A stretch of 64,000 bases of DNA. It comes from Verrucomicrobiota bacterium. GTDB taxonomy: Bacteria; Verrucomicrobiota; Verrucomicrobiia; Limisphaerales; PALSA-1396. The number at the start of each line of letters is the position of its first letter. Position 1 is the stretch's first letter. Both the position numbers and the translations under genes were made by a program. The notes beneath the pieces are model-generated. The model searched no databases. It had not been told where the DNA came from and saw nothing but the letters and a program-made list of their open reading frames with translations. This document shows, in pieces, positions 3,309 through 60,737 of the stretch. The stretch lies in NCBI GenBank assembly GCA_016200005.1, contig JACQFP010000022.1, positions 124,001 through 188,000 on the forward strand. The letters are read 5' to 3'.

Positions 3309-3366
3309 TGGCTTCTAACAGTCATCATTGAGCGGAATTTGAGATCTTCAAGAATCGGAGAAGTTT

Positions 3367-3455
3367 TAACCTGCGGCGGCAACCGCTGGCCGCTTGCCGA
3401 GAAGTCTAAGCGATTCAGAGCGCGCAGAAAGGCCAGCGGTTGCCGCCGCAGGTTA
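3367..3455. repeat. Perfect 25-base inverted repeat abutting the CRISPR array
   Basis: Arms 3367-3391 (TAACCTGCGGCGGCAACCGC...) and 3431-3455 are exact reverse complements, separated by 39 bases. The right arm ends three bases before the last CRISPR repeat begins at 3459. Neither strand shows a T-run after the stem, so it does not look like an ordinary intrinsic terminator. It could be a REP-like palindrome or a structure bounding the array transcript. Confidence 0.8.
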
Positions 3456-3458
3456 GTT

Positions 3459-3774
3459 CCGCCTCACGATTCCTGAAGTCGCGGTGACTGCGCGTTGATC
3501 CGCGCCTCGGCTTCAGTAGCGTCGTCTTCCGCCTCACGATTCCTGAAGTCGCGGTGACTGCGCGTTTCCTTCGGTGGACGGATACCAGAATCCCCCAGCC
3601 GCCTCACGATTCCTGAAGTCGCGGTGACTGCGCGTCAGAATCACCAATGAAATCAAGCCAATGATGACCGCCTCACGATTCCTGAAGTCGCGGTGACTGC
3701 GCGTCATCGGCGTCGCGGCGGCGCTGTTGCTCGGGCTCCGCCTCACGATTCCTGAAGTCGCGGTGACTGCGCGC
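3459..3774 (-). CRISPR. Type V-B CRISPR array, 5 repeats and 4 spacers
   Basis: Five copies of a 36-base repeat at 3459-3494, 3529-3564, 3599-3634, 3668-3703 and 3738-3773 (plus strand starts CCGCCTCACGATTCCTGAAG and ends GGTGACTGCGCG). All five are identical over 36 bases. A 37th base is T after four copies and C after the copy nearest cas2. Spacers are 34, 34, 33 and 34 bases and all different. I place transcription on the minus strand, like the cas genes; the repeat then ends ...GAATCGTGAGGCGG at the spacer junction, close to what I recall for the Opitutaceae V-B repeat. TCAC/GTGA and CGC/GCG pairs allow an internal stem. Confidence 0.95.
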
Positions 3775-3967: not shown

Positions 3968-3997
3968 GCGCAGTCATTCGCGATTTCAAGGATCATG
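3968..3997 (-). ncRNA. Candidate tracrRNA anti-repeat
   Basis: Between cas2 and the array, the plus strand here (GCGCAGTCATTCGCGATTTC...) matches the minus-strand repeat at about 24 of 30 positions, with one inserted base. It is therefore inverted relative to the array. A transcript in the same direction as the array would pair with the crRNA repeat, as a tracrRNA does. Cas12b is known to need a tracrRNA, and in a well-studied locus it is encoded between cas2 and the array. The ends of the RNA cannot be read from sequence. The gap 3775-4082 holds no convincing gene. Confidence 0.6.
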
Positions 3998-4082
3998 TCA
4001 ACCCAATGGCGGAAGGTTGATGGTCGGTGGCCATGGCCGGAATTCATTCAATGCTTTCGAGCGCGACTTGCAAGCCCGAAAA

Positions 4083-4373
4083 TCAAATAATCGTCACGCG
4101 CGTCCGGACGGTATAGGGCAGTCCCATCGCTTCAATGATCAAGCTGGCGTCGTTGGCACTCGGACCAAGCGAGACGAACAACACCTGATCTTCGTCATGT
4201 TTCACAATGGGTTGAAGCGCGGCCTTGAGCATGGCCATTCGCATATCGTCGAGCGGGCACTCGAAGACCGAATACTGCAGCCGCACGCCGAAGCCTTCGA
4301 GCGCGCGTGCCACACGCCGAAGCCGCTTTGGCTCGCAAATATCGTAGCTGACGAGGTAGCGGATTCGAGACAC
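4083..4373 (-). CDS. cas2: CRISPR-associated endonuclease Cas2
   Basis: A 96-residue Cas2, partner of Cas1 in the spacer-integration complex. I place the start at GTG 4373 (VSRIRYLVSYDI); the longer reading adds about 30 residues encoded by low-complexity repeat DNA and would be unusual for Cas2, normally 85-100 residues. The first strand YLVSYDICEPKRLRRVARAL carries the conserved Asp (D11) and is followed by LEGFGVRLQYSVFEC, both family hallmarks. It is the last cas gene, 35 bases downstream of cas4-cas1. No Shine-Dalgarno sequence is visible, so it may rely on transcript continuity with the genes above. Confidence 0.93.
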   Translation of the reverse strand: MSRIRYLVSYDICEPKRLRRVARALEGFGVRLQYSVFECPLDDMRMAMLKAALQPIVKHDEDQVLFVSLGPSANDASLIIEAMGLPYTVRTRVTII

Positions 4374-4408
4374 AGGAGGTTGATGGTTGATGGTTGAAAG
4401 TTGAGTGT

Positions 4409-6211
4409 TCAGCGGGTTGTAAAACCGTGATACGCCGCCGCCTCGCCGCGCACAAACCGCCACAACTGTCGCGCCTGGACTTCCAGCATTCGGCGATACG
4501 CCATCTTGTATTCAAACTCCGGATGGCTGACTTCCGTGTCGCAGCGGCGAAACCACGCTTCCCAAAACGCCTTTCGCCCGCGGTCACTTAGAAACGTGCC
4601 GTTCGCGCCCCGCATGAAATCCTCCGGGCCAAGCTCGCCACGATTCACGAGCGAGATGGCGACGCTGTCCGCAACGAGTGGGCGAAACTCCTCCATCAAA
4701 TCCAGCGCGAGGGCAGGGCGGCCATAGCGCGGTTGGTGCATGAAGCCGAGAAACGGATCCAGCCCGACTGCGTGGCAAACTCCGGTGAGTTCCTTCGCCA
4801 GCATCGAGTAGCCGAGCGACAGCAGCGCGTTCACCGGATCGCGCGGCGGACGCCGATTGCGCCCGCGCCAGTCGAACTTCCAATCCTCCCGCTGCTTGAG
4901 CATGGATTCGAATTGCTCGAAATAAATCGCTGCCGCGTTGCCTTCGATGCCGAGCAGTTCCGTCATCTCGCGCGCGGATTCGGTGGCGTCGCGGAAATTC
5001 ACCATCAACTTCAACACGCGCTCCGGCACGTCGCCGTTGCGCATGAGCATCACGCGCTGGTTGTGAATTTTGGCGCGGATGACTTCTCTCGCAAGTTGCA
5101 GCCGCACGCCGGGCAATTCAAACAGCCGGTATTGCCCGCGCCGCGCGTCCACGCCGCTGGCCGGCAGCGCCCGCAGCAAACCGAGAAACCGCCCCGCCGG
5201 ACTGAAGTAGGAAACATCAATACCCAGGTCCAAACACGTCTCCACCGCCTGCGCCGTGATTTGCACCGCGCCGTAGCAATAGATCGCGCGCACCTGCTGG
5301 CCGGGAATCTTCCGCACGTCCTCGCCCTTCACGCTCACAAGCAACTGGTCGCCGCGCTGCCCGATCTGCGCGCCGGGCGTTTGCACCACCAGCACCTCAC
5401 CGTCGTCGTGCTCCGGGCGTGGTGGTTCGAGCGTCGGTGGTCCTTTGCCCGACTCGGCGGCAAAATCCAACGCTTCGAGAATCCGGTCGCGGACGGCATC
5501 TTCGGTTTGGCCGATGAAACCGAATTGAGTTTGCCCGTCCGTTTCCGCTGGTTTACGTCGCTTCGACCACCACAGCGTTTCGTTGGGCAGACAAATCGGA
5601 TACGCGGAGCAGTAGAGACACCGCGCATCGTTCTTCAACGGTGGCGGGCAGCGACCGCTCGCGGCCACGCCCCGCGCCTCCTCAATCGTGCGGCGGACTT
5701 TGGCAAACAACTCCTCGCTCAACTCCACCGGCACGCGACGTTTGTCCGCCGCGTAATAAATCGCGCCGCGAACCGCGTTGACGCCATGCTCGCGCAACAA
5801 CAGCGCGTGCGCGGCCACCTGCATGGCGTCCGGCTCTTTCGCCACGCGCTCGCCCTCCGCGTTGCGCCGGGCCGAGCCTTTCTTGTAATCAATGATCTCC
5901 GCGCCGTCCGGCCCGCCCTCGACGATGTCCACCACGCCGATGAGGCCGAGCGCTTCGCTTTCCAGCCGCAGACTGCGAATCTTCGCGCCCTCCGGCAGGC
6001 CGAGTTCCTTGGCATCCTCCAGTTTGGACGGCGCGTCCACGTTGCGATGGACATGGCTGCCGGCCACCGTATCCGCGTTCTCCTGAAAAATGTTCTCGAC
6101 CCACTGGAAATAAAACAGCCGCGGGCAATAGATGAAGTTGTGCAGCCGACGCACCGGCATCGGCGGCTGCGCCTCAAGTCCGGCCTGGGTCTGAACCGGG
6201 GCGTCGCTCAT
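4409..6211 (-). CDS. cas4-cas1: Cas4-Cas1 fusion protein
   Basis: A 600-residue fusion. Residues 1-210 are a Cas4 RecB-like nuclease that trims prespacers: Cys29 (NFIYCPRLFYF), D95 (GVVDIVE), the IIDYKKG motif (D108, K110) and the Cys cluster C198, C201, C207 for an iron-sulfur centre. Residues about 270-600 are the Cas1 integrase, with E423 (GIEGNAA), H492 (MHQPRYGRP) and D504 (LALDLMEEFRP) as the metal-binding triad. All key residues are present, so it should be active. The ATG at 6211 overlaps the cas12b stop (ATGA), suggesting translational coupling; a longer upstream reading inside cas12b is rejected. Cas4-Cas1 fusions are typical of type V-B and a few type I loci. Confidence 0.95.
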   Translation of the reverse strand: MSDAPVQTQAGLEAQPPMPVRRLHNFIYCPRLFYFQWVENIFQENADTVAGSHVHRNVDAPSKLEDAKELGLPEGAKIRSLRLESEALGLIGVVDIVEGGPDGAEIIDYKKGSARRNAEGERVAKEPDAMQVAAHALLLREHGVNAVRGAIYYAADKRRVPVELSEELFAKVRRTIEEARGVAASGRCPPPLKNDARCLYCSAYPICLPNETLWWSKRRKPAETDGQTQFGFIGQTEDAVRDRILEALDFAAESGKGPPTLEPPRPEHDDGEVLVVQTPGAQIGQRGDQLLVSVKGEDVRKIPGQQVRAIYCYGAVQITAQAVETCLDLGIDVSYFSPAGRFLGLLRALPASGVDARRGQYRLFELPGVRLQLAREVIRAKIHNQRVMLMRNGDVPERVLKLMVNFRDATESAREMTELLGIEGNAAAIYFEQFESMLKQREDWKFDWRGRNRRPPRDPVNALLSLGYSMLAKELTGVCHAVGLDPFLGFMHQPRYGRPALALDLMEEFRPLVADSVAISLVNRGELGPEDFMRGANGTFLSDRGRKAFWEAWFRRCDTEVSHPEFEYKMAYRRMLEVQARQLWRFVRGEAAAYHGFTTR

Positions 6212-9200
6212 GTGTACTGCATCGGAACATCGTCCTCTTGGTCCGGAGTTGCGACTACCTGCGGCGTGTGATCCCCGGGTTGAAATCCCCATTGCCGCAT
6301 CCGCTCACTATTGATCTCGCGGCAGCGGGTCCATTCCCGGTCCCGAACTGATTTCCATAGGCCGCGCCCGCTGGCTAAGGGAAGCGGTAAGTCCCCAATG
6401 GCCGCTTTGTCAAACATCGCCAACTTCCCAAGATCCACAAAGAAATTTGGCTTTCCACCCTCGCGAGCCAGGGCCGCTTGTTGCGTTTCATTGACCATCT
6501 TGATGTCGGGCGGTTTGCTTCCCCAGCGTGCCTTCTCGCGTTTGCTTTCCGCACGAACCTGGAACTTCCCGTCTGTCGTTTCTGAGCGAATGCGGACGTG
6601 TACCGCGTGCGCGTCCGGCGCGGCGATGGCGCGCAGGCCAAGATTGATGGCGGCATTGATGTCCGCTTGCATGACGGGGAGCTTTGAAGCGGCCGGCACG
6701 AAGAGAGGACCGAGCGGCATGGGCACGAGCAATGTCCGCGGAACCTTGTTCGCCCGGCCTTCGTTTGCTTTTGCCAGCCAGTCAAACAACTCGCGGGTGG
6801 ATTCATCGCCATCAGCCAAACGCTTCTTCCACGGGAATGTATTACGGTCTTCGTTCCGAATCTCCCGTGCGCGAAAGCCCGCCACGCCCGTCCGCGAGCA
6901 GAACTTGGAGGAGTAGGCGGCGGGAGTTTCCAGCACGGGGATACCGAACGCCTGACAAAGTTCCTTCACCTTGTCCGTTACCTGGCGGTGGCACCACTTC
7001 ATCAATCGCAGGTTTTCCTTTCGCTCGCGTGTCTGTGAACTCAGGTAAGCCGACAGATCTTCGAGGACGACGAAGTCCACAGGCTTACGCCCCGGGATCG
7101 GCTCATACTCGCCATGCAAATCCTTCGCTGCTCGCTCCTCCACAGAAGCCTGATGCGGACGCAAGCGCACCCCGAGCGCCTGCGCGACAATCATGTGTGC
7201 TGTCTGGTTCACGCGCTGCTCCTTGGTGCGGTCGAGCTTGTCCAAAATATCCGGGCAGCAATCCGGCAGCGGATCGTTGCGCATCTCGCGCCCGCTCTTG
7301 GGCGCGGTTCCTGGTTCGCGTTGGAGCGCGCGATTGAGCGATTGAAAGCGGCGGCGCAATTCCTCCAGTTGTTCGATACGTTCAAGCGAAAGTCCGCGTT
7401 GCCCCGCAATCAGCGGTTTGTGATCGGCGGCTTCCACCATTTCCACCAGATGGCAGCCCTTCTTCCCGAATTCCTGGTCCGGATGGTTGTTCCACGCCCA
7501 TTTGCGTCCGCGTAGGGGCACGCAGCGATTGGCGATGCGAACGAGTTGTTCGGGCAGGAATGAGTTAAGTCGTTCGATCTCCGCTTTGATGAGCGTTAGG
7601 AGCGGGCCAACCTCCTTGGCTTCCGCACGCGGTCGCAAATCGGTTCGTCGTTCCTGTTCCAGCAATTCCGCGAGAGCACGGTCGCGTTTACTTTCATCAC
7701 CCAGCATCCAGAGCCAGCGATGGCAGCGTGCCAGCCAGCCTTGCGCCCGCCCAAACACGCGGAGCAACTTGCCGTTCAACTCGGGGAACGACCATGTCTT
7801 GGGGTCGTCGCCTATCCAAGACGTGACAACTTCCTCTGCGTTCAGCTTTCCCTCCTTTGCATCGGCTACGAAATCGGCAAGCCGGCGAATAAGGTCTCGC
7901 GTCTCTTTCCATTCGTCATCCGTCGCAAGGCGTCCCTTTTCTCCGGAAAGTTCCTCCTGCCATTTGCCATCGCGCCACACCCGCGCATCTTCGCCCGGCA
8001 GGCGCAAGACTCCGGCGGCGGCGAGGCCGGCGCTCCAAGTCTTGCCATTCGTGTTGCCCAATTCTCGCGCCGGTTTCTTGCCCCAGCCCGCATTTGCTCG
8101 GACATCCAGCAACGCATAGGCGCCCGCGTCTCGTTGTCCGAGGTCAACCGGCAAACAAGTAAAGGCATCCAACGCCTCCCACCACGGACCCGCCTTGCGC
8201 AACGCGGGTGTTTCCTCTTGCGGCCAGCGCAGGAAAAACTTTTGTTCGTCGTCACCTTTGCCGAAAGCGACGAACTGGCTAACCCACCGTGCTTGTGAGC
8301 CGACAGCTTTGTGCAAGGCACTCGGGTCGAGCGACACCGGAAAGTTGAGCAAATGCCGGAACTCCTCGCCCTGCCGGTTGGGCATCAGAGAAACCGCGCA
8401 TTTGGAAAAATCTTGCGATGTGGGTTCGGGAAGATTCAAGGCCGCCATCATCGGTTGCAACCACGCCGCACGTTCGAGGTCTTCGCCACTCGCTTTGCGC
8501 AGTCCATCTCGGCTCAAACGCGGCGCGGAGTAATGCAACCGCACCCGCGTTTCTTTCCAGATGCCATTGGTGTTCACGGCCAACGATACATCCACGCCAA
8601 ACCCGTGAGGTGTTGCGTTCGGCACATGCTCCGACTTCGCTCGGCCCATGAGGTCAGAAAACATGAACAGCCGGCGCGAGTGTTCCGCGTCTGCCGGTGT
8701 AAACCTGATGGGTTCCTTGAGGCGCGCAATGTCCGTCTGCAATTCCAGGTAGTGCTGGTAATCCTCGACGATGCGCTCTGAGAACCCGGCCTTTTGCTGC
8801 GCAGCGGCTGTCGCTTCGTCCGGCGTCGCCCACAAGCACCAGTAATCTTTTTCGAGCAGCTTCTTGAACAATGTCACGCTGCCGATGCGCTCCTTGTTCT
8901 CCGCCTGGAACTCGTCGGTAGCAGCAATCAGTTTTCCATAAACTTCGTCCGAGAACGGTTGGCCTGGCTTCACCTTCTTGTTCCACAGCGCGACGAGGTC
9001 GCGATAGCAGCGCAGCGTGCGGGGGTGCAGCCCATACGCCACGCTCTCACCCTCAGCCAGATAATGTTCCTCTGCCAGTTCCACTTCGATCAGATGCTTC
9101 ACTTTCTCAAAACGAGGGTCGCCCTTGAGGACGGCTGGCAGCTCTTCCTCGACGTGCTCCGCGCGCTTGAGCTTGGTGGCCTTGCCATCCATCCAATCCA

Positions 9201-10443
9201 GTTCTGCCTGTAACCCGGCGGCTTTCTGCAAACGTTCCTGCGTTTTCAGACGAAACTGGTTTGCTGTCTTCAACGCCTCCTTGAAGGCGGCGATGTCGAA
9301 CTCGCTCCACAGCAGATCGACCGGGCCTTTGCCACCCCAACAGGGCAGGCTGGTAAAAGCAGGAAACACATAACCGCGATTGCCGCGCGCAAGTTTGATC
9401 GGGTCGTCACCCATGCTAACAAGTCGGTCCGCTGTGCCCGCTGCGACTTTGGCTGTCTGCCGAGCCGGAGACTTCGGAGCAGGGAATGAGTCGCGAAGGA
9501 CTTCAAACGTAACGAGTGAGCGTTCGACGTACGCGAACAAGAGGTAGGCGAAAAACCGGCGCTTCAGCGCTTCCTTGTTGATACTGCCGCCGGCATACGC
9601 CGGGTACGCAGCCGAGTCTGGCAGCGCTCCGATCTTCTTCTCAAGATGTTCCGCAATTGCAGTCAGTCGGGAATCCTTCCCTTTTAGCCAAGCCAGCGCC
9701 TCCAACAATTTGTCTCGTGCTTCCTTCCCTGACACTGGATTCGCGTTCGGAATCGGGTTGGCGAAGAAGCCGAATTTCAGTTTGGCGGCAATGGCATCAG
9801 GATTTCGTGCGGATTCAGGATCATGCAGCAGCGCCGGCAAAGTGGTCTTGGCTTCAGCCTTCTGCAAGGATGCGGCTCCGCGTGGGAACTGTCCGTTGTA
9901 GCCGGGCCAGCAGAGCCGGGGCAGATAACCGCGCCCTTCTTGTTGAATCGCCGAATCTCCACCCAGGTCTTCGACCAACGCATCGACCGCCAGTTGCAAC
10001 AATTCCTTGCTTGATGAATTCCCATCGAGGGTAGCGGCGAAAGCGTCTTCGATGGTTGCTTGGGTTTTGCCGGGCAACACGTACGGCATAATCACGGCGC
10101 ACAGTCCTCTGAAGCGTCTGCTCTTGCGGATGAAGGGTTGCCACACATCCGCAAGCTGCTTCCGCAATTTCCCCATCGGGGTAGTTTCATCACTGGCCAG
10201 CGCAGCAAGGCAGAACAGATAATAATTCACCGCGTCCTGAAAGAGTTGGTGGTGCTGCCAGAGGGCGGCTTGCCATTTGGCTTTCGCCTGCTTGGGGTCG
10301 TCAGCGAACGGCAGCCACGGATTCTGATTTCGACACCTCACCTCGGTCCTCTCCCCGGTCGAGGCGGAGAGGATGCGCGGCGCGTGCTGGTCCGGGTTGG
10401 CGATTTCGACGTTGGTGACCTTGCCTTGGTAGATGCGGTTCAT
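6208..10443 (-). CDS. cas12b: CRISPR-associated effector Cas12b (C2c1), unusually long
   Basis: The 1411-residue RNA-guided DNA endonuclease of the locus. The RuvC-like nuclease is split as in other Cas12 proteins: motif I PVDLGQRDAG (D767), motif II VDFVVLEDLSAYL (E1128) and motif III MQADINAAINLG (D1261). The stretch after motif II (ENLRLMKWCHR, AAYSSKFCSRTGVAGFRAREI) is characteristic of Cas12b and separates it from Cas12a. There is no HNH motif. Compared with Alicyclobacillus Cas12b (about 1130 residues, from memory), the extra length is mostly before motif I (about 200 residues) and between motifs I and II (about 80). Residues about 22-38 (RILSASTGERTEVR) are encoded by a palindromic repeat also found upstream. 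Start ATG 10443 has no clear ribosome-binding site. Confidence 0.93.
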   Translation of the reverse strand: MNRIYQGKVTNVEIANPDQHAPRILSASTGERTEVRCRNQNPWLPFADDPKQAKAKWQAALWQHHQLFQDAVNYYLFCLAALASDETTPMGKLRKQLADVWQPFIRKSRRFRGLCAVIMPYVLPGKTQATIEDAFAATLDGNSSSKELLQLAVDALVEDLGGDSAIQQEGRGYLPRLCWPGYNGQFPRGAASLQKAEAKTTLPALLHDPESARNPDAIAAKLKFGFFANPIPNANPVSGKEARDKLLEALAWLKGKDSRLTAIAEHLEKKIGALPDSAAYPAYAGGSINKEALKRRFFAYLLFAYVERSLVTFEVLRDSFPAPKSPARQTAKVAAGTADRLVSMGDDPIKLARGNRGYVFPAFTSLPCWGGKGPVDLLWSEFDIAAFKEALKTANQFRLKTQERLQKAAGLQAELDWMDGKATKLKRAEHVEEELPAVLKGDPRFEKVKHLIEVELAEEHYLAEGESVAYGLHPRTLRCYRDLVALWNKKVKPGQPFSDEVYGKLIAATDEFQAENKERIGSVTLFKKLLEKDYWCLWATPDEATAAAQQKAGFSERIVEDYQHYLELQTDIARLKEPIRFTPADAEHSRRLFMFSDLMGRAKSEHVPNATPHGFGVDVSLAVNTNGIWKETRVRLHYSAPRLSRDGLRKASGEDLERAAWLQPMMAALNLPEPTSQDFSKCAVSLMPNRQGEEFRHLLNFPVSLDPSALHKAVGSQARWVSQFVAFGKGDDEQKFFLRWPQEETPALRKAGPWWEALDAFTCLPVDLGQRDAGAYALLDVRANAGWGKKPARELGNTNGKTWSAGLAAAGVLRLPGEDARVWRDGKWQEELSGEKGRLATDDEWKETRDLIRRLADFVADAKEGKLNAEEVVTSWIGDDPKTWSFPELNGKLLRVFGRAQGWLARCHRWLWMLGDESKRDRALAELLEQERRTDLRPRAEAKEVGPLLTLIKAEIERLNSFLPEQLVRIANRCVPLRGRKWAWNNHPDQEFGKKGCHLVEMVEAADHKPLIAGQRGLSLERIEQLEELRRRFQSLNRALQREPGTAPKSGREMRNDPLPDCCPDILDKLDRTKEQRVNQTAHMIVAQALGVRLRPHQASVEERAAKDLHGEYEPIPGRKPVDFVVLEDLSAYLSSQTRERKENLRLMKWCHRQVTDKVKELCQAFGIPVLETPAAYSSKFCSRTGVAGFRAREIRNEDRNTFPWKKRLADGDESTRELFDWLAKANEGRANKVPRTLLVPMPLGPLFVPAASKLPVMQADINAAINLGLRAIAAPDAHAVHVRIRSETTDGKFQVRAESKREKARWGSKPPDIKMVNETQQAALAREGGKPNFFVDLGKLAMFDKAAIGDLPLPLASGRGLWKSVRDREWTRCREINSERMRQWGFQPGDHTPQVVATPDQEDDVPMQYT
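10331..10380. repeat. Palindromic repeat inside the 5' end of cas12b
   Basis: CGACACCTCACC...CCTCTCC...GGAGAGG...GCGCGG matches the intergenic copy at 10659-10708 at about 80% by eye. The stem CCTCTCC/GGAGAGG is kept in both. It is translated in frame as part of Cas12b. Its peptide (LSASTGER) resembles those made by the same family elsewhere in the window (LSPSDGER at 43512-43574, LSASDGER at 40011-40073). Confidence 0.75.
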
Positions 10444-16843: not shown

Positions 16844-17163
16844 TCCAATCTGGATACTCCAGAGCGGCCATTTTCCTGAAAACCGGATTCAAGTCCAGCC
16901 CGATGAATGGGTTTGGGTGAGCGGCCAGGATGGATCCAAGATTGGAGCGCGGACAGCCTTGTCCGCGTGTTGGAGTTCAAGCTTCAGCTTGTCCCGAGGC
17001 ACGCTAAAGCGTGAACTCCAACTTTTGCGCGGACAAGGCTGTCCGCGCTCCTACGAGGTTCATTTCTTCGATCCACTCAGCCGAGCGACGGCAACTCCGG
17101 CAGTTTGCCTTTGCCGCCTCTGGAATATCCGCTACACTTTTCAAAACCAATGCGCGTCAAGTT
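16844..17163. other. Divergent gap with a nested palindrome
   Basis: A perfect 24-base inverted repeat, 16944-16967 and 17028-17051 (GGAGCGCGGACAGCCTTGTC...), surrounds an inner GTTGGAGTTCAAGCTT / GTGAACTCCAAC pair. No gene is seen. The synthetase start at 17164 has no clear ribosome-binding site. Confidence 0.75.
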
Positions 17164-21867: not shown

Positions 21868-22252
21868 GTGGGGAGCTTAGATTGAAATGTGAATGGAAGC
21901 AACGCGGCGTGTATTTCCCTACCCATGATCCGCAAGGTAGGGCGCGTCACTCCGTGCGCGCCGTTCGGATCGTATGTCCAAACCAGCGGCGCGCACGGAG
22001 TGACACGCGCCCTGCCAACGCGCCCGGTTCATCACTTGATAAATCGCCGCTTCCTAATCCAATCGTAATTTCCTGGCTACAACAGCCCCAGCCTGCCCAA
22101 CGCTCAATTAGTTGTTGATACGTTTAACCGACTTCTCGGAAAGCTGCGTCGGCAATTTCCCGTTTGGGGATGAGGAATTGACGGATGCGCCAAATCATGA
22201 GATAGGTTTCGCGTCCCATCGGGATTCCCAGAAAGGCCTGATCGGGCGTTGC
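21868..22252. other. Divergent gap with a GTAGGGCGCGTCAC palindrome
   Basis: An inverted repeat at 21936-22016 has arms GGTAGGGCGCGTCACTCCGT and the near-complement ACGGAGTGACACGCGCCCTG. A second copy is at 26618-26693. No gene is supported in this gap. Confidence 0.75.
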
Positions 22253-26617: not shown

Positions 26618-26693
26618 GGTAGGGCGCGTCACTCCGTGCGCGCCGTCTCGGCAGACATCGAACCCCGGCGCGCACGGAGTGACGCGCCCTACC
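26618..26693. repeat. GTAGGGCGCGTCAC palindrome (second copy)
   Basis: Arms GGTAGGGCGCGTCACTCCGT and ACGGAGTGACGCGCCCTACC are exact reverse complements, lying in the gap between the carboxylase and atuA genes. Confidence 0.85.
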
Positions 26694-60541: not shown

Positions 60542-60561
60542 CCGCCACTTCGCCGGTCGCC

Positions 60562-60634
60562 GGAGCGCGGACAGCCTTGTCCGCGTGATGACTTCAAGCT
60601 TTCGAGAACTTGCGGACAAGGCTGTCCGCGCTCC
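60562..60634. repeat. GGAGCGCGGACAGCC palindrome (second copy)
   Basis: Arms GGAGCGCGGACAGCCTTGTC and GACAAGGCTGTCCGCGCTCC, the same arms as at 16944-17051 but with a shorter, different centre. Confidence 0.85.
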
Positions 60635-60737
60635 GCAGCGACATGGGCACGATGCCCGGCAACGAGCCGTGGAGTTCTCCTCAAGAACGGGCTTGACGCC
60701 GGCCTTTCGAGGGGCGCAGGCTGCCGGGTAGAATCCT

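Follow-up and report, generated by a model that had tools for sequence, protein, structure and literature searches.

In a Verrucomicrobiota bacterium of the order Limisphaerales, a hairpin with an exact 25-bp stem stands immediately beyond the last repeat of a type V-B (Cas12b) CRISPR array, and related hairpins recur at the trailer ends of both V-B-type and type II arrays across the order, with changed sequence and kept pairing and with none found off arrays. The hairpin can be seen as a trailer cap: we tentatively read it, at a little short of an even chance, as an element that occupies and locks the place where the spacerless terminal repeat would find its guide, thereby preventing an extraneous crRNA (ecrRNA). 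The window in which it was found is the whole stretch of DNA analysed, 64,000 nucleotides long, and coordinates below refer to it.

The hairpin (3367..3455, minus strand) consists of arms at 3367-3391 and 3431-3455, found complementary at 25/25 positions by an inverted-repeat search of the window, around a loop of 39 nt, and lies 3 nt (3456-3458) from the terminal repeat, exactly as the earlier note on this DNA had described the stem and its spacing. Such perfect stems, with loops of up to 120 nt, are expected by chance about 1e-8 times per window, and the predicted RNA fold of -64 kcal/mol compares with a shuffle mean of -33.8 (z = -8.0), with 0/200 shuffles folding as well. An Rfam search with the hairpin gave three matches, with E 0.21-0.97, far under the gathering scores. 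On the same strand, a weak and degenerate antirepeat-like flank (3346..3357) is complementary to the terminal repeat at 11/12 positions and, since it can pair with that repeat, might form an imperfect extension of the stem.

A GC-rich hairpin that would close the presumed V-B transcript at its 3' end invites comparison with a transcription terminator or a stabiliser of the pre-crRNA 3' end, the more so as T-rich sequence follows the stem in some relatives (G237, G100 and the type II array of G226). Intrinsic terminators, however, do not look like the members of this family, with their loops of 34-52 nt and stems of 24-29 bp, and inspection of the sequence found no T-run on either side of the window hairpin, AAAACTTCTCC being what comes next in the array sense. 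With its 39-nt loop the element does not have the form of a short-loop GC stem with T-run, and a terminator scan gave no call at the stem, which lies outside its range, since it covers loops of 3-8 nt only. Moreover, transcription of type II-C arrays, as described in the literature, would enter the array through the hairpin. A terminator or stabiliser is quite unlikely; the earlier note, too, had taken the stem for no plain terminator.

On the minus strand the locus reads cas12b, cas4-cas1, cas2, about 300 nt, the array and the hairpin. The effector of 1411 aa (6208..10443) matches NF033949 at 756.6 bits against a cut-off of 150, and is accompanied by a cas4-cas1 fusion (4409..6292; NF049935, 612.6 bits) and cas2 (4083..4463; TIGR01573, 47.2 bits), whose true start is probably inside the ORF; all are on the minus strand. 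Because the effector is recognisable as Cas12b, the locus is assigned to type V-B, and the type I-G locus that the Cas4-Cas1 fusion would suggest was rejected. The V-B-type array (3459..3773, minus strand) has 5 identical 36-nt repeats and 4 spacers of 33-34 nt, and its terminal repeat (3459..3494, 36 nt), presumably the oldest and lacking a spacer, is identical to the consensus. Between cas2 and the array, also on the minus strand, lies the antirepeat of a probable tracrRNA (3968..3997), with a conserved block 5' of it (CCACCGACCA..CTTCCGCCATTGG, approx. 3998..4043, with boundaries estimated from alignment) as its probable body. The antirepeat is found 194-226 nt ahead of the first repeat in 14/14 aligned leaders and changes with each genome's repeat, the match being weakest in G096. 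This antirepeat, set in the conserved block and co-varying with the repeat, supports a reading of array and tracrRNA in the direction of the cas genes, which would place the hairpin at the 3', cas-distal trailer end. The truncated or degenerate last repeats of some arrays also lie at the presumed trailer end. A position of the hairpin on the guide side would agree with this decay, with the order of the cas genes and with the conserved leader and tracr sequences. The antirepeat-like flank beyond the hairpin was considered as a second tracrRNA and rejected, given the conserved antirepeat between cas2 and the array and the weakness of each single trailer flank. Separately, the alignment of the putative V-B tracrRNA (window 3968-4043 with the leaders of 13 relatives) could yield a covariance model of its own.

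Cas12b was detected in 19/320 genomes of the order, own genome included, and the degenerate repeat pattern in 23/320, with the reversed control giving none in any genome listed; the closest named contig (L034) encodes a Cas12b 69% identical to that of the window. When trailer ends of V-B type were counted only if more than 150 nt follow the last repeat, 8/17 had a stem of 25-29 bp placed -1 to +3 nt from that repeat, as against 0/18 leader ends (Fisher p 0.001). Single-repeat loci (G060, G128) make up two of the 17, leaving 8/15 real arrays capped; one of the 15 (L039) is a named record possibly from outside the order. The capped trailers are those of G000, G237, G228, G100, G081, G079, G267 and G263, the terminal repeat of G079 being imperfect and holding two Ns. 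The label V-B-type extends to four genomes in which Cas12b was undetected, G081 and G235 being assigned by a conserved tracr-like leader and G079 and G263 by repeat sequence alone; the relatives are assemblies often broken at arrays, and several trailer contigs are without cas genes. Six further single repeats, checked separately, have no long stem, and among V-B arrays outside the order (10 regions fetched) 0/6 trailer ends with room are capped. The earlier note had proposed looking for the same stem beside arrays of relatives, and what emerged is a family of diverged stems rather than an identical sequence.

Two other features of these loci can be recorded here. Single V-B repeats without an array occur in G060:C62 (L135), G128:C257 (L133) and G139:C55 (L130); those of G060 and G128 have, by eye, leader-like sequence upstream and may be emptied arrays. 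Part-matched Cas12b relatives, in ORFs of 1,575-1,918 aa, occur in G153, G128, G004, G226, G238 and G100 (L051, L052, L053, L055, L056, L057), mostly adjoining V-B-type cas4-cas1, cas2 and arrays, and might be divergent or enlarged effectors.

The family extends beyond type V-B. A covariance model (R1), built from the first seven hairpins, the window's included, which match by construction, was run over 313 genomes of the order and gave 11 places with E <1e-6, 10 of which adjoin a CRISPR repeat, while the eleventh, in G225, stops precisely where its contig does. Four weaker places, in G242 (two), G195 and G008, lack an array in the 3 kb of sequence available. The independent later finds are G263, G248, the type II hairpin of G228, and G225, together with the type II hairpin of G226, which came to light when its array end was inspected directly, the genome-wide model searches having passed it over. 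Two of the ten repeat-adjoining places are type II arrays: that of G248, which has cas9 (TIGR01865, 211 bits) and a type II cas1, and G228:C147, a one-repeat remnant assigned to type II from its repeat and a nearby cas1-like frame. Cas9 relatives occur in 22/313 genomes, and among presumed trailer-side type II ends with more than 150 nt beyond, the hairpin is present in 3/9 (G248, G228, G226), directly beside the repeat; the ends in G022, the second locus of G226, G077, G005 and G084 have neither hairpin nor inverted repeat copy. As a side observation, G226 (L187, L217, L230, L123) carries two cas9 relatives and a V-B array, with one type II array capped and the V-B array uncapped. As a type I control, 12 arrays located via Cas7 (PF05107; 20 loci) gave 0/16 ends with a stem above score 8, only 4 of these 16 ends with room being trailer ends by repeat orientation.

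One further type II array, in G037:C40 (L215), ends near 5572 in a degenerate terminal repeat; after it, across a loop of 6 nt, comes a perfect inverted copy of 22 bp, and the repeat itself would there be folded away. Template switching yields perfect palindromes, and this trailer, holding an inverted copy of its own degenerate repeat, could be taken to favour the idea that the caps are functionless palindromes left beside arrays by chance or by passive template switching. That idea is hardly credible for the family, because the element recurs: 11 genomes hold 12 homologous, diverged elements, all but one of which share a single repeat-side position, and a counterpart is present at 0/18 V-B leader ends and 0/16 type I array ends.

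The hairpin does not behave as a dispersed repeat either. In the 6.54-Mb own genome the arm pattern with up to 3 mismatches occurs only as the hairpin's own two arms; a BLAST-type search of the same genome at E up to 10 gave 17 matches, 2 being the locus itself, and no second hairpin copy, the off-locus matches being short and the best of them (L009, L010, L012) having no stem above score 8; and the covariance model found no second copy there. As a DNA query against 146 relatives it matched seven other genomes over 22-38 nt, none with a stem above score 9. A permissive model search of the 11 cap-bearing genomes returned weak extras only (E 6e-4 to 0.01), the five listed being without an inverted repeat of at least 14 nt. 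Among plasmid records (72,556) and phage records (50,697) none matched the hairpin, and an insert from either source was thus rejected. The earlier note had entertained a palindromic element that landed beside the array, for which many copies at unrelated sites would betray a mere dispersed repeat; as a repeat of the REP or MITE kind this is rejected, since no other copy is present in the own genome and copies at many unrelated sites were not seen in the genomes searched. As a CRISPR-specific transferable module the hairpin is conceivable, because one genome has homologous copies at a V-B and a type II array.

Palindromes of other kinds are present in the window. One of different sequence (GGAGCGCGGACAGCC..) lies at 16944-17051 and 60561-60635, with a variant on a different contig of the same genome (L019 2307-2376) and a mean of 0.00 in shuffles, and is likely a REP-like repeat; a second family (GTCACTCCGTGCGCGCCG) lies at 21946-22004 and 26618-26693, with arms of 18 and 28 bp.

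The family comprises 12 elements in 11 genomes, with arms of 24-29 nt and loops of 34-52 nt, 11/12 elements occupying the same position beside a repeat. In a comparison anchored on GCGGC, which is contained in all 12 arms, 314 arm pairs comprised 310 Watson-Crick pairs, 1 G-U and 3 mismatches, and outside the anchored core most arm positions show two to four pair types across genomes. Because the arms were picked as stems, their matching is in itself uninformative and it is the change of letters that informs. RNA helices that have diverged so far usually hold more G-U pairs, which may mean that one arm is corrected against the other at the DNA level. In G228 the alignment of the V-B cap with the type II cap runs from the stem over the loop into the flank downstream; G237 (V-B) and G248 (type II) match in the same way, and G237 also aligns with G225 (unassigned) through the hairpin and further downstream. 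The caps are thus homologous modules that follow genome lineage more than CRISPR type.

These patterns are also what would be expected of a CRISPR-specific transferable palindrome, or recombining trailer module, that settles at any array type and is maintained by DNA-level arm correction, with effects on RNA being secondary. The shared stem, loop and part of the downstream flank of the two G228 caps, the tracking of lineage over CRISPR type (G237 V-B, G248 type II, G263 V-B) and the near absence of G-U pairs and mismatches around a GCGGC common to every arm all speak for it. However, none was found off arrays, the weak extras in cap-bearing genomes lack the inverted repeat, plasmid and phage records gave no match, neither transposase nor target duplication was noticed on casual inspection, and a mobile element would be unlikely to pick only the last among identical repeats; such an element is a fairly unlikely rival. 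A further reading, in which one homologous palindromic module is passed between arrays of unrelated CRISPR types (Cas12b and Cas9) within the order as a general array cap with DNA-level palindromy, is possible, though we would not rate it as probable; such a module would work in either transcription direction, because a palindrome blocks the ecrRNA guide both ways.

The position at the repeat edge of the trailer in two systems with different Cas1, and the nearly all-Watson-Crick pairing, might alternatively point to a DNA boundary that guards the trailer end against recombination, loss or the integration of spacers. CRISPR array growth is, however, expected at the leader end, and many uncapped arrays look normal. 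Thus the earlier note's boundary for array growth fits poorly, being at the opposite end from where growth is expected, and a trailer-side boundary role, though conceivable, is very unlikely.

The trailer-cap reading to which we return begins from the fact that an array carries one repeat more than it has spacers, and that this repeat can give an ecrRNA. The crRNA of type V-B is laid out as repeat then guide, and the last repeat would draw its guide from the sequence just downstream; the first arm of the hairpin, at an offset of 3 nt and with a length of 25 nt, close to that of a Cas12b guide, would occupy this very place. If an RNA is produced across the hairpin, a guide locked in a 25-bp duplex could not serve, and the long stem, possibly with the antirepeat-like flank, may stop the terminal repeat from being matured by tracrRNA, RNase III or Cas12b. 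With the ecrRNA unmade or inactive, Cas12b would be free for the real spacers, and it is this suppression that may have been selected. The guide lies 3' of the repeat in V-B and 5' in II-C, where transcription would run the opposite way, and provided that both types are transcribed in their usual directions, the hairpin would fill the place of the guide in each; the II-C subtype and the transcription direction of the type II arrays are here taken from general knowledge. As two reports describe it, the ecrRNA derives from the last repeat in repeat-guide systems, and II-C arrays give it from their oldest repeat, the first to be transcribed (PMC13187072, PMC12080349). Since the ecrRNA would thus come from the oldest repeat in both layouts, its guide would be the sequence just outside that repeat, which is where the hairpin lies. 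The earlier note's structure that ends or protects the pre-crRNA came close to this, to which the trailer-end position and the filling of the spacerless repeat's guide place are now added.

Predicted pairing is consistent with the cap covering the guide. For the first 20 nt of the terminal-repeat guide position it averages 0.84 in the window array and 0.91-1.00 in the other seven capped V-B arrays, whereas the internal spacers of these arrays have means of 0.50-0.71 and the terminal guides of 7 uncapped arrays reach 0.44-0.65; in type II the predicted values are 0.99 for G248 (internal 0.33-0.61), 0.96 for G228 and 1.00 for G226 (internal mean 0.57). Pairing alone is not unique to caps, because single internal guides of G228 (0.95) and G004 (0.97) are predicted to be as strongly paired. 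For the flank, complementarity of 3346-3357 to the terminal repeat has a single-locus shuffle p of 0.001, and six other loci are each weak (p 0.03 to 0.57); summed in a restricted register over 7 loci, the antirepeat score reaches 53, where the loci themselves give a null of 37.4 (sd 3.6; 0/300), and without the window locus 42 against 31.0 (sd 3.3) from shuffles (0/300). The predicted pairing of the repeat 3' half with downstream sequence exceeds that of every internal repeat of its own array in 4/8 capped arrays, while in one, G237, it is lower than the internal mean. Thus a flank-repeat pairing signal appears real in sum but small, and homology among the relatives' flanks may inflate it.

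Damaged terminal repeats have been reported as another solution in V-A and II-C (PMC6610086, PMC12080349), and they are found in 8/13 uncapped V-B arrays versus 1 or 2/8 capped ones (p 0.07 to 0.18). The capped case is G079, with G100 depending on the consensus chosen: its terminal repeat has 3 differences from a consensus borrowed from G228, and its other repeat shows 2. Among uncapped arrays, damage is seen in 3/7 in the order (L039, G238, G096) and 5/6 outside it (G584, G414, G356, G503, G516), of which G356 is doubtful, its 2 differences matching the repeat sequence of G362 and perhaps being no damage. A trade-off between cap and damage is thus a trend only, not significant; restricted to the order, p is 0.28 to 0.61. 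Neither a cap nor a damaged repeat is present in four arrays of the order, nor in G362 outside it. Counting against the cap model are the 9/17 V-B-type trailer ends without a hairpin and the absence of caps from all six V-B trailer ends examined outside the order. Further, a stem of 25-29 bp exceeds what trapping a guide needs, and the shared GCGGC and nearly all-Watson-Crick pairing exceed what an RNA structure requires, which hints at a DNA-level process.

The handling of the extra repeat is an active question that has been treated for II-A, II-C, V-A and type VI, and the caps offer a candidate answer for a V-B group, with one homologous structure standing at the arrays of two CRISPR types with opposite guide layouts. 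The cap model specifies exactly which RNA should be absent, and a short natural cap could help at the ends of synthetic arrays. A search of an open-access library, with subscription papers and preprints excluded, found no paper on Cas12b with extraneous crRNA, none on Cas12b with Verrucomicrobia and tracrRNA and, among the matches listed, none on V-B array trailer hairpins.

The caps can be placed beside several known systems. REP and MITE elements are dispersed palindromes, short palindromic DNA with a shared arm motif; the caps are likewise short palindromic DNA with a common arm motif, but in the genomes searched their strong matches are confined to CRISPR repeats and one contig edge. In the V-A study (Liao et al. 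2019, PMC6610086), 11/14 native terminal repeats carry changes expected to disrupt processing. The problem and the array end are the same there, a repeat-guide crRNA and its last repeat, but V-A damages the repeat (PMC6610086), whereas the caps leave it mostly intact and structure the sequence after it. The leader-repeat hairpins of II-A and type VI (Cas13), as described by Migur et al. 2026 (PMC13187072), suppress ecrRNA, the leader pairing with the first repeat. As with the caps, whose suppression we infer, an ecrRNA-suppressing hairpin there involves sequence outside the array, but the main stem of the cap lies outside the repeat and at the trailer end, and the weak antirepeat-like flank alone reaches the repeat. 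The closest parallel is with the II-C ecrRNA helices of Feussner et al. 2025 (PMC12080349), which that report describes as statistically enriched 8-bp helices that sequester the guide; in C. jejuni the helix, also a predicted terminator, stops targeting, and its disruption restored targeting in cell-free tests. Thus the hiding of an ecrRNA guide in a helix is already known for II-C (PMC12080349), and in both cases the helix lies within the guide of the crRNA to which the extra, oldest repeat would give rise. In contrast to the 8-bp helices, the window's family consists of near-perfect stems of 24-29 bp that belong to one sequence family and occur in V-B and type II alike, and what appears to be new is the V-B case, the long near-perfect stems and a homologous cap common to two CRISPR types.
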